26,111 nucleotides of DNA, taken from the NCBI RefSeq assembly GCF_000003605.2, contig NW_003156735.1, positions 45,060 to 71,170 on the forward strand, written 5' to 3'. How positions within the stretch are numbered: the first letter of the stretch is position 1; the number at the start of each line of letters is the position of its first letter. A program made the translations under genes and the position numbers. The notes under the pieces were generated by a model. The model had not been told where the DNA came from and did not search any database. It saw nothing but the letters and a program-made list of their open reading frames with translations. The DNA is from Saccoglossus kowalevskii. Taxonomy: Eukaryota > Hemichordata > Enteropneusta > Harrimaniidae. Positions 3,901-26,111 of the stretch are shown here, in pieces.

Positions 3901-5741
3901 CAATAGAGTAGCCAAGGTGTTAAAATAGACCAAGTAATGGACAATATTTTGCATATGTTTTTAACGCGTGCTTTTTCGTTCATTTCGTGTACATTTTTGG
4001 ACTCATAACCCTCACAACCTAATATTACACGTAATAACGTAACGACTTCTCACGTTTTCCCGGTAAAGGCGTAGTGCTGTTCCATCTTTGGACACCAGCC
4101 AACAAATATTTGCTGTTTTACTTAACAAAGAGACTCAGCACTAAACACAAACGAACAATTTCCCGACTTAAAGTAGGACTTAGACCGTGTTTATATCCAA
4201 AAACCCTCTGGGAGATCGAGTTGTAAGCAGAACCTTTCATAAATATTTTCTGAAATCAAATCCGCATAATTGTGTAACACGTTGACCTGTACCCAATGAT
4301 AAGTTGCGTCTATTTAGACCAACATTTAATAAAAGGTATTGCAGAAAAAAACATCAAAACTCCAAAATTATTCATGAACATTTTAGTATTAAAAATATTC
4401 CGCTCTAGGGTCTGAGTAGCCTGAACGCACCAAAAGAGACACGTATTGTAAAATAAAGCGTGGATTATAAGCACTGTTGTATTAGCGTCCCACCGACTGA
4501 AACAATTGAATATGTAAGGTCAGTTATGATTGTGTCAATTCACGCTCTCTTGATAATTATTGGACGAATCGGGAACCGCAACATTTGAAATTTAAGCGTT
4601 TGGCAAACAAGAAATTACTCCCAAAGGAAATCATATGAATCAGAACACATATGCTTCAGAATCATTTTATTCTGAGAGACCGACATAGTATGTTGCCATA
4701 GTTACAAGACATTCTATTTACGGCGACTGAAAGACTTATAGGCCAGAGAGTATGAGACAATATTTTTTTTGGAAATAACCATATCTACACAAGAATATGA
4801 CAAATAAAAAACATTTTAATTGATATTGTCAAAACATGCCTATATTATGAGTCCTGATTTTTAGTTGAAACACAAATTCAAATATTCGATCGGGTTACGT
4901 GAGCAACTATAGTACGATGTAATAAACCAGGTTGAACTATTTCACGGCAGTGTGCTGGACAAATAAATATGTATACCAATGCAAAGACAATTATGTAGAT
5001 TTCTTGGAAATATAATACATAGTTTTCCGCTCAGTCCGTTGTGTGTTGGAAAAAAAATACTGACAAATAGGGATTGCCGAACATAAAACTTCAGCGACAG
5101 CCGGCTAACTCGTACAAATCCTGAAATAAAAAAAAAGTCTGTTTATGTATAACTTGGGAAAGAAAAGAGGAAAGATCGACATCTACCGACGTCATAAACA
5201 TGGCTTATATTCGCCGGCGAGTAAATAGGTGTATTCATGGTTCGGCTGTAGTAAATTTGATCGCTATCTAATTCAATTTGTATTCCCTTGGTTGACTTAT
5301 CGGTAAAGAACCTAGCCCTAATATCTGATGTGCTGCGGGCCACACGCTCGCTAAGAATCAGGAATAACATTATTGTGAAAACATACAATATTTCAAGTGG
5401 TTCAGATGCGATTCTATCAACAAGTTAACGCCATCAGTTTCTGAATTCAATATATCCTCGGTTAATTACTGTAGCGATGTTTCCATATTCAAGAGAGCCG
5501 CACTTGAATCATTGAGGAATTCACACAACCGCGGATAGCGTACAGCCTGCAGTTGCGTGTATTGGGAAATTATATACGTATTTTTTTGTATTTTCTTTTT
5601 ACCGCAGTCTAATCTCTGTGGCAGTGGTTTCCAGTTTAGCGCGTTTCATTGAAAGTAGTGTGCATTGTGCCAACCACAGTTGGCTAAGACGGACGCAACA
5701 AACATCGTAGAATCCTCGGCTCGCGTACAAAGCAAGATTGC
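961..5741. other. Non-coding/intergenic stretch, no supported gene
   Basis: This is AT-rich sequence with only short open frames, none longer than about 81 codons and none with recognisable domains. A few splice-like signals occur, for example a minus-strand GTAAGT at 3297 after a 20-codon open frame, but nothing joins into a gene model. A good minus-strand acceptor at 5742-5743 is described with the peptide gene. Confidence 0.6.
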
Positions 5742-6024
5742 CTGCAGTCAAAATGTACAAGACACAGCCACGCCATTCTGTCCTCGGGTGTATTCCTCCC
5801 ATATTCTCAATTCTTGATCACGGTTTCGAAAAAATCCTTCAACTCATGTGCTTGTGCTGGCGGGAGTGCAAATTAATTCAAGCATTGATAAATGGTCACT
5901 ACCGTACGATTCCTAACCTTTCTATCCACTACATCAAATTATATCTTATCACATAATGTACATATCTCATCTTTAAAAAAGTAATTGTGAACTGGCTGGT
6001 AACGGAACATATATACGGTCTTAC

Positions 6025-6122
6025 CTAGCGTCTCCCAACTCCAAAATGATAAAACGTTTTACCATGATTGGAGTCCCGTTTCCTTTCTGGGTCTATGACA
6101 TCATTGCCCATATAGTCTGATT
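6025..6122 (-). CDS. Terminal coding exon of putative amidated neuropeptide precursor
   Basis: The exon follows a very strong acceptor: a pyrimidine-rich tract (6125-6150) ending in CATTAG at 6123. It enters in phase 1, and only this frame is open; both other frames stop early. It reads SDYMGNDVIDPE, then RKR, then DSNHGKTFYHFGV, then GRR and TAG (6025-6027). This is the classic end of a neuropeptide precursor: a tribasic convertase site, a 13-residue peptide, Gly as amide donor, a dibasic site and stop. The predicted product is DSNHGKTFYHFGV-amide, secreted from neurons or endocrine cells. The entry phase matches exon 2 (9838-9880), with the shared codon becoming GAA (Glu). The joined precursor is 90 residues, with one peptide copy at its C-terminus. 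I do not recognise the family; the FGV-amide end only loosely recalls allatostatin-A-type FGL-amides. The stop is followed directly by a GTAAGA donor at 6024, so the 3' UTR may be spliced, perhaps to the acceptor at 5742. Confidence 0.55.
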
Positions 6123-8330
6123 CTAATGTGGAAAACAAAAATATTTGAATTAGATATCGACAAACAATAGATCATTTGAAATAATTCGGTTGATCGTGAA
6201 TTCAAAACATTCTGTATAAACTACACGAAATTAGTGCACACTCCGAGATTTGAAAATTTCAATGAAATGAGTATACAAATGATCATGAGTGACAGTACAC
6301 CCATTACAAACATCATGTAAAATTAAGTATTCTATAATAGTGACCTATTATCAATTGAAGTATATTTATTATTTTCAAGATTTGTTCATCAAGCGTATTC
6401 ATGTGTAATTTGTTAGCATGCGCAACGTTATATATCGAAGAAAATGGTCATATACGCTTCATATTATCGCCCTGGTTCACTGGGCCATATGAATCATCCT
6501 CAACTCCCTGGCCTTTGGGGGACCGAGTAGCGCAAGGTATAACAGTGATCGCGAATAATTGTGAGTGTGTTGCCCAGCAGAATCATAGCCACTGAGACGA
6601 TGCTTCTTTAAAGAACGCTAATTAGATATAGGTATAGTCAGTAAAGACTGCCACCAGTGAGACGTAACCCTAGGACTGAAATGCTTTCACTAAGCTTTGT
6701 ATACTCAATCGAACAATGTTATACTATAACATTCATATCAATGTGTCTGTTTTACACGCCCGTATACTACATTGTTGGTGGTGTCTTGATGTGTCGAAGA
6801 TGAACCACAGTGGAAGTAGTTGAAGTAGTTTTCAACTAAATGTAAGTTTGTTTGTATGTTACAATTATTAGTTTTACTACTATGGCATTGCAAATATGAC
6901 GTAACCATAGTTTCAACACCATTATATATAGGTTATCACCTATTTGTTGAGTTGGTTGATAAGCTTACCGAACGTCTGACGTAAAATCGACCGCTTTGAT
7001 TTTGAATAGCTCAATGTCGAAGTGCCGTTCATTTAGAAGGGAGTATTACATTGAGATGCCCTTATTTCATCAAAATTGGCTATAATCAAATGTCTATAGC
7101 ACATTTTGTAGCGTGTAGTTTCAGTCGTAACGCGTGATCTCGCAGTGAACGTGTAATTCTCTATTGTTGTCATACAGTCTGAACTGTGCATATCATAGTA
7201 CCATCGTACACAAAGACTAACGACGTTCTGCATGTATATCGCCACGTGACACATTATTATAGTGCCATTTCACACTGTGTTTGTGTCATAAAATCTTACA
7301 TCGTGAAGTTTCATTATATTCTTTGTTATATTTGTGTAACAAGGCTTATCGACATTTTTAAATTGCAAATTTTTCCCTAGTATAATTTCAATATTTATTA
7401 TTAAAAACCCGCCAAAAATATAAATGTTAAAATGAATCAACAGTGTGTTTCCTTCACTGCCAACCTGATTTTGTTGCTGATAAAATAGGTCAAATATTAT
7501 TTACAAAAGGACATTGTAGCAGCGACTGTAATAGACCAAAATGAAAAGCACTTTTTTCACTAAAATCCCACTAACATTATATAATACTTCTTCATTCAAA
7601 AGTACCCTGTAAGACGGAGTATATATAACATGTGTAACTCTACCGTACAATTTAAATATACCTTTTTACTACGGAAAACAGTGGTAAAATATTTCCATAT
7701 ATTCACTTGATTTTGAGTAGAGTGACTAAATATGTTGATTTTATGATCTCCATCCTCAAAATATGAAACCGTTTTTTCTGAAATATCAATATTGTATTGT
7801 TTATCATTGTACGGGAGTAGTGAATTGTGGGTATTATTTAAATTAGATTGGCGGTACCCGACATGTCTTCAAGTAAAGGTGCAAAGGGTGATTTTGACAG
7901 ATGGTTAATTCAGCTTGAATGGCATTTTCCCTAAATATTGTGCAAATGGGGGGGTGATTTCATATATATCTGTCACACTAATTCACATCACGTTATTTGG
8001 TCGAAGCAACGCAATTGGCGAGTGACATGCGACGAATACAAGACTTTTGAAATAAAATGCTTACTCTCGCGATATTCAAACGCACGCAACACGAGACTCT
8101 GCCACTGCCGATGTCCTTAGTGCATTACAGTGAAATTAATGTAATATAATAAAATCGTTGTTACAATCACGTCACTGACTACGCACATTATGTCGAAGTC
8201 GAAGGAATTAAGGAAATGGACATATATCAAATTACCGTAATTGGTTCCCATCTTATCGAAAGAAATACGCGTCTGGTTGTTTTACATTGATATTTGCCGT
8301 TTGGAGTTACGAGTGTTTTGACATAAGAAA

Positions 8331-8381
8331 CAACAACAACAACAGCAACAACAACAGCAACAGCAACAGCAACAACAACAA
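8331..8381 (+). repeat. CAA/CAG trinucleotide tract (17 triplets)
   Basis: Seventeen consecutive CAA or CAG triplets: 13 CAA and 4 CAG. Every interruption is an A-to-G change at the third position, so in one plus-strand frame the tract encodes 17 glutamines without a break. That frame runs on about 30 more codons to a TAG and stops a few codons upstream. No other sign of a gene is present, so a microsatellite is the simplest reading. Confidence 0.9.
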
Positions 8382-8958
8382 CATGTTATGGTTCAGTACA
8401 GTGTTATACAGACATGTCATATCAGTAATTTAGCATATTCCCTAAATTTAATAACACTACTAGCGTACGCGGATTAGTTATTGGATGTGAAACAGAAACA
8501 GCGGTACAAAATAAGAATTATTGTCTGTACTTCGCGGTGTTCTCGCAATATCAGTATGATCATCAGTTATTAACGAGGCATACACGATATTGATATAGCG
8601 GTTATACATATTCTGAGTAAGACGAGAGCATTTCAATATATTCTTTTTTTAATATTTTATGTTTGTCAGGTTACTGATCGGCACGTGTATATTATATGTT
8701 ATACGGAAGCTGATTATAATATAAAACAGCAATAATTTTCGGGGATTAATCGATATTTTTTTTGGGACCTCAGTTTATGCAATATGACTATGAAGGATTT
8801 TGTTTTACTCAGTCATCGATCGTGTAATATGTTGCTTACCCACACCTTATTTATGAAATCCCGAAGTCATCTCTCGTTTTATTTGCATTTAAACATAATT
8901 ATCCTTTACACCCGCTACGTGTGACCCACACCTAACAAAACGTCGATTATTAACACTA

Positions 8959-8964
8959 TTTAAT
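8959..8964 (-). promoter_or_regulatory. Possible variant poly(A) signal ATTAAA
   Basis: ATTAAA on the minus strand, about 170 nt downstream of the TAG that closes the cysteine-rich alternative exon (9135-9256). It is the commonest variant of AATAAA. In AT-rich DNA the hexamer is frequent, so its position is the only support. Confidence 0.2.
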
Positions 8965-9134
8965 GCAGTAATTGGTCACCATGCCCGTCAATCAGACGCA
9001 ACTAATACATTAAAATAACACTATATTGATGAACAATTGAAATTAAACAATATTAAACATTTCCATCCTTTTCTAGGATCAACAACCGCACGCGTATCAG
9101 CGTATCGTCCACTGTGCGCCTCCAATGCATGCCT

Positions 9135-9256
9135 CTACTGGATTACGCCACAGCAGAATCGTATAGACAGTTTATTACCCCCATCGTGACATTTCGCTGC
9201 ACAACACGATGTTCGTGTAATGTAACCGTTAAATATTGAATCAGGTGAATAATTCA
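9135..9256 (-). CDS. Possible alternative terminal exon encoding a cysteine-rich peptide
   Basis: The acceptor is good: a T-rich tract and a branch-point-like CTGATTAAC precede CAG at 9257. The exon enters in phase 1, the same phase that exon 2 (9838-9880) leaves, and runs 40 codons to TAG at 9135-9137. The encoded tail begins NYSPDSIFNGYITR and then TSCCAAKC, an 11-residue spacer and FCCGVIQ. That is a CC-x3-C-x11-CC pattern with five cysteines, after an Arg that could be a monobasic cleavage site. Joined to exons 1 and 2 it gives 98 residues: signal peptide, propeptide and small Cys-rich domain. The odd cysteine count is unusual unless the product dimerises. The CC-x3-C start recalls insulin A chains, but there is no B chain and the next spacing is wrong. 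It may be an alternative 3' end of the gene, the end of a separate gene, or chance. It is less convincing than the terminal exon at 6025-6122. Confidence 0.3.
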
Positions 9257-9837
9257 CTGAGTTAATCAGAAAGTCAAAAAGTAACGCGGATGTGTAAATC
9301 AACTTTTTTTATGCGCATTAGTCATGGTCATAGTTAATGAAGATTCATTGGCAATGTATCTGAGTGACGTATTAACAGTACTAGTGGTAATATTCAGAGA
9401 ACAAACACGAAAACGCAACAAACTATATGTCTCTATTTTGTGACGTGCTGCCTTCTACGGAACATGCAACGGGAATCACTTTCTGGCAACAAACGCTTCA
9501 TGATTCGGATCCAAAACACCATTTGACGGTCTTGCCGAATATAGTATATTACAGTGGATAAATATGACACCGATTTCGAAATGAAGGAAGAGAAGACGTG
9601 TAACAACTCACAAAAGTACAAGTCTATTAAAGGCACGGCATGCGAAATTATAGGACTTGTGATGAGATATTCAAACCTATTATTGACGCCGTAATTGCTC
9701 ACCTGGGCTTTTTACGAAATCATGCAAGAGCACACCGGGGATTGACATAATGGCAATGGAGGTAATAAAGTATCTGTCTATTGGCTTTTCCAGCATTATT
9801 ACAAATCGGACTAAGAAATACGCTATGTGACTCTTAC

Positions 9838-9880
9838 CTCCCGCTACTGAATTTGATAGTTGACTTTGTCTTTGTTCTTC
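9838..9880 (-). CDS. Middle exon (43 nt) of putative peptide precursor gene
   Basis: This short exon has near-ideal splice sites on the minus strand: a pyrimidine-rich acceptor ending TTTCCACAG at 9881 and a donor GGGAG|GTAAGAG at 9837. It continues exon 1 exactly in phase 0 and reads EEQRQSQLSNSVAG, leaving in phase 1. The sequence is polar with no basic cleavage site, typical of a spacer propeptide. Its exit phase fits both candidate terminal exons (9256 and 6122). The frame also stays open past the donor for about 50 codons to a TAA near 9680, so intron retention would give a longer tail with no peptide features. I favour splicing because both sites are strong. Confidence 0.6.
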
Positions 9881-10312
9881 CTGTGGAAATACAGTAAAAA
9901 CGAACGATTGTGAGTGTTATCAATATGACTTTTGGATATGAATAATTTATTTATAAATATGTAATTTCCAGAGATATATGCATAATATACACTGGACTAT
10001 TATTATAATCCTAGTAAAGATGGATAATTCAATATTTGAACCAAACAAACTACTTATTTGTATTTATAAACCACATCTTCAAAACTGTTTATATATTTGG
10101 CTAAATGTTAAAAAAATGAGGACATGTGAAATATATTTTTATATAGTTAATGTAGAAATGATGTCATCAATTTCAGTCCCTACGCACTACTGGCACAATA
10201 TTTATATTGTAAAACGTAATTTCACAGTGATAAGTTTTCGTAATATACGAACTCATCAGAAGCTCCCTCGTATGTGTACTGGCATGTTCAGTCGTCAACA
10301 AATGGGACTTAC

Positions 10313-10479
10313 CAGAATTATGTTAATAATTTCTCTGACAACCGCTGCGATCCGTCCTTCGAGGTCGGCATTGTCTCGAAGTGGTATAGCTGCAATACCA
10401 TACACGAAAACCATAAAGACAAGCGCACAAGCTCCGCACTTCATTTTATTTTTTCTGTTTTCTGGTTATCTTTAAGATC
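10313..10479 (-). CDS. First coding exon: signal peptide and propeptide of secreted peptide precursor
   Basis: The exon starts after an acceptor-like TATATTTGCAG (10480-10490), so a 5' UTR exon probably lies upstream. Translation starts at ATG 10442-10444; in-frame TAA codons lie just upstream, which fixes the start. The first 19 residues, MKCGACALVFMVFVYGIAA, form a good signal peptide with a small-residue cleavage site. Residues 20-44 begin IPLRDNADLEG and continue as an amphipathic helix (RIAAVVREIINIIL). The coding part is 44 codons (10313-10444) and ends in phase 0 at CTG|GTAAGT, a perfect donor (10307-10312). Exon 2 follows after a 432-nt intron. An N-terminal propeptide starting (A/I)-P-(F/L)-R followed by an amphipathic helix recalls vertebrate calcitonin precursors, but no calcitonin-like mature peptide follows, so I do not assign that family. 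The product should enter the secretory pathway. Confidence 0.65.
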
Positions 10480-10490
10480 CTGCAAATATA

Positions 10491-11225
10491 CAATGTAATA
10501 CGTCACTGAGATGCACCGCTAGTGGTCACTTTCCGCTCAAACTCATGTTTAATTTACGTTTCTTACTGTCGGTTTCATGTAAATAACCAATGTATATTAC
10601 ACGTGTTTTAAAATTCGCATACGACCCATAATAACACTGGGAGACGTGACGAGTGTAGTAATATCATCTAGTGTTGTTTGCTTTAGAAACTTTAGAAACA
10701 AGGTAGCCTAATATTTTCTTTCAAATACAAGTTTTTTTTTCGCGATTTTCTCGTTCATAACTATAGCAAGACTAATCTAAAACATATCAGGTATCAACTT
10801 TGAACCTTGGACTTTCAGAATAGAATAGTATATAACAACGGTGTGACACTGAGAAAAGCTAGCAAGAATATTCTTCAAAAGAGTAATAACAGACGAGCTC
10901 AATGGGGTGGAAGGAAATTACTGTGGTTCTGTTATCGGCAAAATTAAAAACAGTACCTAAGCGTGAGTTTTTGAAATGGTTATTATTCTTATCTGTGTCA
11001 TCCACAGCTAAACTACAAACGTCATCGTTCATGACATTGGAATTAGGAACTTCCATGTGAGATAATTTTATTTATCTACCGACAGTTTGTTAAATTGTAT
11101 AACATTATAAATCAGGTGTCTGTTCTATGAAGCATCTCCTAATCCGAAATGTGAAATTATTCATATAAATCACATGAGGCCGAATTAGCAGTACAACACA
11201 ATGTTACCAAAATACAAACTGCCTA

Positions 11226-24740: not shown

Positions 24741-26111
24741 CGCCCATTTCACTATTCGTACACGCATTCCTATGTGTGCCCATTTCACTATTCAGACACG
24801 CATTCCTATGTGTGCCCATTTCTCTATTCAGACAAGCATTCCTATGTGTGCCCATTTCACTATTCTTAGACGCATCCCTATGTGTGCCCATTTCACTATT
24901 CTTAGACGCATTCCTATGTGTGTCAATTTCACTATTCAGACACGCATTCCTATGTGTGCTCATTTCACTATTCTTACACGCATTCCTATGTGTGCCCATT
25001 TCTCTCTTCAGACACGCATTCCTATGTGTGTCCATTTCACTATTCATACACGCATTCATATGTGTGCCCATTTCTCTATTCAGACACGCATTCCTATGTG
25101 TGTCCATTTCTCTATTCAGACACGAATTCCTGTGTGCCCATTTCACTATTCTTAGACGCATTCCTATGTGTGTCCATTTCACTATTCAGACACGCATTCC
25201 TATGTGTGCCCATTTCACTATTCTTACACGCATTCCTATGTGTGCCCATTTCACTATTCAGACACGCATTCATATGTGTGCCCATTGCACTATTCGTACA
25301 CACACATTCCAATGTGTGCCCATTTCACTATTCAGACACGCATTCCTATGTGTGCCCATTTCTCTATTCAGACACGCATTCCTATGTGTGCCCATTTCAC
25401 TATTCTTAGACGCATTCCTATGTGTGTTCATTTCACTATTCAGACACGCATTCCTGTGTGCGCCCATTTCACTATTCTTACACGCATTCCTATGTGTGCA
25501 CATTTCACTATTCTCAGACGCATTCATATGTGTGCCCATTGCACTATTCGTACACGCATTCATATGTGTGCCCATTTCACTATTCGTACACGCATTCATA
25601 TGTGTGCCCATTTCACTATTCGTACACGCATTCCTGTGTGCCCATTTCACTATTCATACACGCATTCCTATGTGTGCCCATTGCACTATTCATATACGCA
25701 TTCCTATGTGTGCCCATTTCACTATTCTTACACGCATTCATATGTGTGTCCATTTCACTATTCGTACACGCATTCATATGTGTGCCCATTTCACTATTCT
25801 TACACGCATTCCTATGTGTGCCCATTTCACTATTCATATACGCATTCCTATGTGTGCCTATTTCACTATTCGTACACGCATTCCCATGTGTGCCCATTTA
25901 AATATTCGTACACGCATTCCTATACGTACCCATTGCACTATTCGTACACGCATTCCTATGTGTGTCTATTTCATTATTCATACACGCATTCCTATGTGTG
26001 CCCATTTCACTATTCATACACGCATTCCTATGTGTGTGCATTTCACTATTCGTACACGCATTCCTATGTGTGTGCATTTCACTATTCATACACGCATTCC
26101 TATGTGCGTCT
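24741..26111. repeat. 36-bp minisatellite, about 38 copies, running off the right edge
   Basis: The consensus is CACGCATTCCTATGTGTGCC followed by CATTTCACTATTCNNA. There are 37 full units from 24761 to 26090, with partial units at both ends. Thirty-four units are 36 bp, two are 34 bp (starting 25121 and 25625) and one is 38 bp (starting 25299). Because 36 is a multiple of three, ORFs open on both strands (for example a 12-residue GTHRNACxNSEM repeat on the minus strand). The indels and an in-frame TAA at 25898-25900 break those frames, so coding is unlikely. Variant units form a higher-order pattern of about seven units. Confidence 0.97.

Follow-up and report, generated by a model that had tools for sequence, protein, structure and literature searches.

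A predicted allatostatin-A-like amidated peptide in a candidate precursor gene of the acorn worm Saccoglossus kowalevskii

Does the genome of the acorn worm Saccoglossus kowalevskii hold the precursor of a secreted, amidated peptide at a locus split into short exons, and which receptor might such a peptide serve? The question arises from a 26,111-nucleotide stretch of DNA (hereafter the window; NCBI RefSeq assembly GCF_000003605.2, contig NW_003156735.1, positions 45,060 to 71,170 of the forward strand), in which an initial annotation had joined three minus-strand exons into one candidate gene. Our analysis indicates that this is very likely a real peptide-precursor gene. Its product could quite plausibly, if short of probably, be a single-copy hemichordate neuropeptide acting as a ligand of the allatostatin-A (AstA)/galanin receptor clade. 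The narrower proposal, that the gene is a deuterostome AstA orthologue whose single-copy YXFGV-amide peptide is the endogenous ligand of hemichordate AstA-type receptors, is put forward tentatively. The parts of the gene are as follows.

10445..10479, minus strand: 5' untranslated region (UTR) part of exon 1, next to an acceptor-like site, TTTGCAG, at 10480-10486 (7.5 bits, 55th of 2,319 AG sites)
10313..10444, minus strand: coding part of exon 1, with the predicted signal peptide and the start of the propeptide; donor CTG/GTAAGT, phase 0, 10.8 bits
9838..9880, minus strand: exon 2 (43 nucleotides), propeptide EEQRQSQLSNSVAG; phase 0 at its start and phase 1 at its end, acceptor 9.1 bits, donor 10.4 bits
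6025..6122, minus strand: exon 3, with the end of the propeptide, RKR, DSNHGKTFYHFGV, GRR and TAG as the last codon; acceptor 5.6 bits
6037..6075, minus strand: 13 codons encoding the mature peptide, predicted as DSNHGKTFYHFGV-NH2; counted back from the stop codon
6028-6036, minus strand: GRR amidation and cleavage signal, followed by the stop codon at 6025-6027, counted in the same way

The three exons join in phase at exactly the positions first proposed, and their coding parts (132, 43 and 98 nucleotides) sum to 273 nucleotides, which translate into 90 residues plus stop, MKCGACALVFMVFVYGIAAIPLRDNADLEGRIAAVVREIINIILEEQRQSQLSNSVAGESDYMGNDVIDPERKRDSNHGKTFYHFGVGRR. The frame is lost if exon 1 is joined directly to exon 3, so the small exon 2 is needed. 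The layout that had been described, of signal peptide, propeptide, convertase site, amidated peptide and stop, is present in the translation in that order. The hydrophobic core of the signal peptide lies near the start codon (Kyte-Doolittle value of 3.0 over 10 residues), and by the -3/-1 rule the signal peptide would take up roughly residues 1-18. The other hallmark of secreted amidated precursors is found in exon 3, where RKR precedes DSNHGKTFYHFGV and G, RR and the stop follow it.

Splice sites were scored with generic metazoan weight matrices over the 3,139 GT and 2,319 AG sites on both strands of the window. The donors of exons 1 and 2 ranked 4th and 6th. The acceptor of exon 2 was likewise good (14th), but that of exon 3, which had been called strong, ranked only 122nd. 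If the gene is expressed in this form, the transcript would join three or more coding exons, and the signal peptide would take the product into the secretory pathway. A prohormone convertase would then cleave behind RKR, a carboxypeptidase would trim RR, and the C-terminal glycine would be converted to an amide, so that one copy of DSNHGKTFYHFGV-NH2 would be released. These convertase, carboxypeptidase and amidation steps are established in the processing of peptide precursors; their operation here, like expression and the receptor pairing discussed below, is what we infer from the DNA.

The predicted peptide is a single amidated 13-mer ending in Y-H-F-G-V. The initial annotation had recognised no known family in the mature peptide, a view that its C-terminus qualifies. 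AstA is defined by a C-terminal Y/FXFGL-amide in the available text of PMC9263205, and YHFGV-amide agrees with it at Y, F and G, with X being free and L replaced by V in one conservative change. The random frequency of [FY]xFG[LIVM] is about 7e-5. A full-text literature search for FYHFGV returned nothing, and related FGV-amide strings led to no paper whose title concerned neuropeptides, with the reservation that figures and supplements could hide some. The string YHFGV occurred once in the literature searched, in a paper on a silkworm-pupa hydrolysate. PaOGS36577 and other insect peptides were considered at first and set aside given the hemichordate host.

We also searched the genome for other endings of this kind. 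In the first of two patterns, [FY]xFG[LIVM]G was followed by two codons, mostly basic, and then a stop; in the second, K and then R or S came after the motif. The first found three places (this gene, C2594 and C4504) against one in a reversed control, and the second found two isolated places (C2717 and C4772) against none. Among these five, a recognisable precursor architecture was seen at the present gene only. The YSFGLGKK-stop of C2594 was judged to be chance from an exon-join search, its best acceptor having 4.6 bits and about 9.8 kb upstream containing no first exon with a signal peptide. RKKYNFGIGKK-stop in C4504, FLFGLGKR in C2717 and FHFGIGKR in C4772 were judged to be chance by eye from 3 kb loci. 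A multi-copy AstA precursor of the arthropod kind should show up as a cluster of [FY]xFG[LIVM]GK(R/S), and an exon-by-exon search of the genome found none, within the limit that leucines encoded by TTR fall outside the pattern. The Pfam Allatostatin model, which is 11 positions long and, among 14 control genomes, also matched that of a cyanobacterium, had a single match elsewhere in the genome, below the cut-off (E 4.8) and in a chance-like frame.

The genome also encodes receptors that resemble those of AstA. The transmembrane region of Drosophila AstA-R1 was used as the query, and 133 of 628 candidates were scored. The query had at least 134 matches in the acorn worm genome, the top two full-length ones being L020 and L021 (45% identity; E 5e-72 and 3e-70). 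The next matches had 39% identity (E 7e-59 and 1e-48), and later full-length ones had 35% or less. Three receptor genes are of concern here:

C173:133382-134251, single open frame: L020, nearest to AstA-R1
C2950:411077-411943, single open frame: L021, nearest to AstA-R1
C453:210959-211834, single open frame: L022, nearest to galanin receptors

In the trimmed-region alignment, L020 and L021 were 45% identical to AstA-R1 versus 35-38% to human GALR1 and GALR2, whereas L022 had 44% and 42% identity with the galanin receptors versus 40% with AstA-R1. Alignment scores with AstA-R1 were 648 for L020, 624 for L021, 548 for GALR1 and 547 for L022. Against PDB sequences, L020 was closest to galanin receptor 2 (202 bits), galanin receptor 1 (185) and somatostatin receptor 2 (184), then to opioid receptors, and L022 was closest to galanin receptor 2 (231 bits). 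A 10-row tree, from which L023, L027, L028, L030 and L031 had been removed (three on long branches, and two that a branch of length 3.32 separated as a pair from the rest), grouped AstA-R1 with L020 and L021 (87/92) and L022 with GALR1 and GALR2 (95/94), and in it a placement of L020 and L021 with the galanin receptors was disfavoured (p-AU 0.035). The genome thus probably has two AstA-type receptors and at least one galanin-type receptor; the assignment of L020 and L021 comes from a tree built without kisspeptin receptors. At C2108:374462-375647 on the minus strand, two further stretches match AstA-R1 in part (48% over positions 5-114; 37% over 107-291, where one TAA occurs); they may represent a third AstA-R-like gene that is interrupted or contains an intron. 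AST-AR genes have been reported in hemichordates and described as lost in chordates (PMC4489612, in part), and in the literature searched we found no described ligand for the hemichordate AstA-type receptors. The likeliest targets of the peptide would be L020 and L021, followed by the galanin-type L022, and receptor binding would fall to the YHFGV-amide end.

Several observations weigh against an AstA identity. On the peptide side, the last residue is V and not the L of the definition in PMC9263205, as far as its available text goes. The precursor carries one copy of the peptide and not several, no similarity to AstA was found outside the five-residue ending, and the Pfam Allatostatin model (PF05953) did not match the precursor. 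The likeness of the motif was assessed after the peptide was known, with many families compared mentally, and the search for rival ligands was made in an incomplete and gapped assembly with patterns blind to the leucine codons TTA and TTG and to endings split by introns. The acceptor of exon 3 is mediocre. On the receptor side, AstA-R1 and human GALR1 are themselves 43% identical, near the 45% between AstA-R1 and L020 or L021, so identity alone separates the AstA and galanin types narrowly, and the distinction rests mainly on alignment scores and the tree. A weakly resolved 15-row tree gave AstA-R1, L020 and L021 no clade of their own (they shared a fork of 54/46 with six other receptors); the 87/92 clade appears only in the 10-row tree, where it lies under the starred level and where a placement of AstA-R1 with the galanin receptors was not rejected (p-AU 0.069). 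Both trees were built without a kisspeptin receptor of known identity, and part of PMC4489612 places AST-ARs nearer KISSR. The 43% identity between AstA-R1 and GALR1, together with the TTR leucines outside the search patterns, lowers our estimate for the AstA orthologue. We do not file the peptide as AstA, in view of its V ending, single copy and lack of a Pfam match, but it may well work like one.

With arthropod AstA (PF05953) the present system shares an amidated aromatic-X-F-G-aliphatic end, dibasic flanks and AstA-R1-nearest receptors in the genome, whereas it differs in V for L, a single copy in a precursor of 90 residues, a deuterostome host and the missing Pfam match. Like the present gene, galanin and spexin precursors are short and carry the peptide once. 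To our knowledge the present peptide resembles neither of them, its end being AstA-like. A further link to the vertebrate galanin and spexin systems is the galanin-receptor-type gene L022 in the genome. The kisspeptins have a related receptor clade and an F-G-aliphatic sequence near the C-terminus (NXFGLRY-amide, in the available text of PMC9263205), but the present peptide lacks the terminal R-F/Y, and L020 scored 161 bits against the KiSS-1 receptor versus its 202 for galanin receptor 2. The peptide ends in FGV-amide, and neither the FGLR(F/Y)-amide end of kisspeptins nor the LPF-amide end of echinoderms was found in it; the echinoderm kisspeptin-type motif is given as RXLPF-amide in part of PMC9793003. 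Copy number has a parallel in luqin, for which the accessible part of PMC4772807 describes single-copy precursors in ambulacrarians versus multi-copy ones in ecdysozoans, while arthropod AstA precursors contain 4 to 14 copies (PMC8514136, in part).

The alternative that survives best, and a real possibility, is that the gene is a true precursor of a lineage-specific family acting on another receptor, the likeness of YHFGV-amide to AstA being a coincidence. The anatomy of the gene (splice sites, phase and the simulation described below) fits this alternative too, as do V for L, the single copy and a likeness limited to the ending. Lineage-specific precursors with one peptide are common among ambulacrarians: of 20 precursors predicted in a crinoid, 19 (PCNP2-20) had no homologue that the authors could find in other echinoderms (PMC9793003). 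The crinoid precursors have the same single-peptide anatomy, whereas the present ending is not common to those peptides that are spelled out in the text of that paper (others are given in its figures). The random frequency of the ending speaks against coincidence, as does the fact that, among the five motif places, the sole one with precursor architecture belongs to a genome that has AstA-type receptors. When the 90-residue product was compared with all 572 Mb of the assembly, its own exons 1 and 3 were the only matches (E <= 0.001), so that the gene is no repeat and has no recognisable paralogue. The best matches of the precursor in Pfam (E 0.26) and among PDB sequences (E 1.4) were non-significant.

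A less likely explanation of the locus is that chance open frames and splice-like sites imitate a precursor where there is no gene. We defined a comparable model as a signal peptide, a dibasic site and a G-basic-stop ending in two to three exons, with thresholds chosen after the gene was known. Such models occurred in 2 of 300 order-3 Markov windows and in 27 of 2,000 order-4 windows, and at the latter rate hundreds would be expected in 572 Mb. The middling acceptor of exon 3 and the existence of other in-phase joins (a longer exon 2, or a start at 9796) also favour chance. Against it, donors of at least 10.3 bits in addition were reached in only 4 of the 2,000 windows, and the ends of the model coincide with three of the top 15 donors among 3,139. 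The tribasic and dibasic sites, the amidation glycine and the stop are moreover all correctly ordered. The same search of about 60 kb of real sequence from the same contig (43,666 and 16,409 non-N bases, about 4.9 kb of which overlaps the start of the window) found no model. In the window itself it found none on the plus strand and seven on the minus strand, every one ending in exon 3; the seven are variants in start codon and in the donor of exon 2, together with a two-exon form from 9796. Because the criteria were set after the gene had been seen, the support from simulation is good, not decisive. Scanning the window for Rfam families and tRNA genes gave no hit.

The region behind the stop codon bears on whether exon 3 is the last exon, as had been assumed. 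The cassette of RKR, peptide and GRR does end this exon, but its terminal position is doubtful. Other sites that could alter the splicing of the gene are these:

6017..6024, minus strand: donor GTAAGACC right behind the stop, TAG/GTAAGA, 8.9 bits, 15th of 3,139
4650..5120, minus strand: candidate 3'UTR exon of inferred extent, with an acceptor at 5120 and AATAAA at 4671-4666
9703..9880, minus strand: candidate long exon 2, with donor CAG/GTGAGC at 9702; in phase, giving an unproven product of 135 residues

The acceptor at 5120 (12.8 bits) is the best among the window acceptors listed and lies about 900 bases past the donor that adjoins the stop, which suggests an intron in the 3'UTR beyond exon 3. 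With a good donor at the stop and an acceptor and AATAAA downstream, exon 3 is unlikely to close the transcript. Skipping exon 3 to acceptors at 5856, 5152 or 5120 gave no peptide cassette. No minus-strand donor of the window is stronger than that at 9702 (12.2 bits), which exceeds the one at 9837 and is in phase with exons 1 and 3. The long exon 2 inserts a hydrophobic stretch, which is unusual for a propeptide and counts against the long form. The two-exon alternative starting at 9796 satisfied the same model search and ends in exon 3. That the gene as a whole is spliced differently, with exons after exon 3 or exon 3 itself alternative and with the long exon 2 or the 9796 form as the usual product, is favoured by the stop-adjacent donor with its downstream acceptor, by the donor at 9702, which keeps the phase, and by the 9796 start, but is improbable; the in-frame stop ends the protein regardless, and every form yields the same mature peptide.

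Other candidate peptide genes were noted in the same genome. About 40 kb from the present gene, at L004:513-827 on the minus strand (contig C4611, approximately 10513-10827), a second neuropeptide-like precursor lies in one frame. It contains MRQVTVITAALMAMCLLIHSVNVSA, then KSSRLHSYQSSGTAMFG-KR and a C-terminal tail, with a possible ...SGTAMF-amide, and there too GTAA stands directly behind the stop TAG. A full-text literature search with its ending gave no relevant match. The genome also has two neurophysin-like exons (Pfam Hormone_5). An exon some 2.6 kb upstream of the first of these reads ...CEACFISDCARGGKRSPG... and encodes the vasopressin-type CFISDCARG, whose seventh residue, alanine, is unusual. 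A stricter vasopressin pattern demanding proline found nothing in the genome, consistent with the alanine. CFISDCARG-NH2 is listed for S. kowalevskii in part of PMC7181382, the one paper in the literature searched that contained this sequence. The second neurophysin domain (L015, C3808:144108-144341) is separate from the vasopressin-type gene and has one TAG within the match. It could belong to an NG-peptide type precursor as known from ambulacrarians.

Elsewhere in the window, reverse transcriptase pieces lie at 52-954 on the minus strand; Pfam RVT_1 matches 52-471 (E 3.8e-12), and 472-954 matched no family. Positions 1-155 hold a 70-base tandem duplication. At 24742-26106 a 36-base unit is repeated in tandem about 38 times, and in this array several frames are open on both strands and the plus strand favours C over G. 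The adjoining part of the contig, C4611:71171-101000, is N throughout.

The place of this gene among peptide families is of interest for how AstA signalling is thought to have evolved. One bilaterian ancestor is regarded as the common origin of the receptors for AstA, galanin and kisspeptin (PMC4489612, in part). As far as the available texts go, canonical AstA peptides are confined to Panarthropoda (PMC9263205), AstA-type peptides are absent from deuterostomes (PMC8514136) and galanin-type peptides had yet to be identified in echinoderms as of 2017 (PMC5860471). With a candidate ligand and receptor genes of the fitting type both present in a single deuterostome genome, this open pairing becomes directly testable by receptor assay. 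More generally, a class of genes built from short exons around one short peptide escapes open-reading-frame scans. If the AstA assignment of this gene is true, signalling by an AstA peptide and its receptor would predate the split between protostomes and deuterostomes and persist in acorn worms, and the ancestral AstA precursor may have been single-copy.

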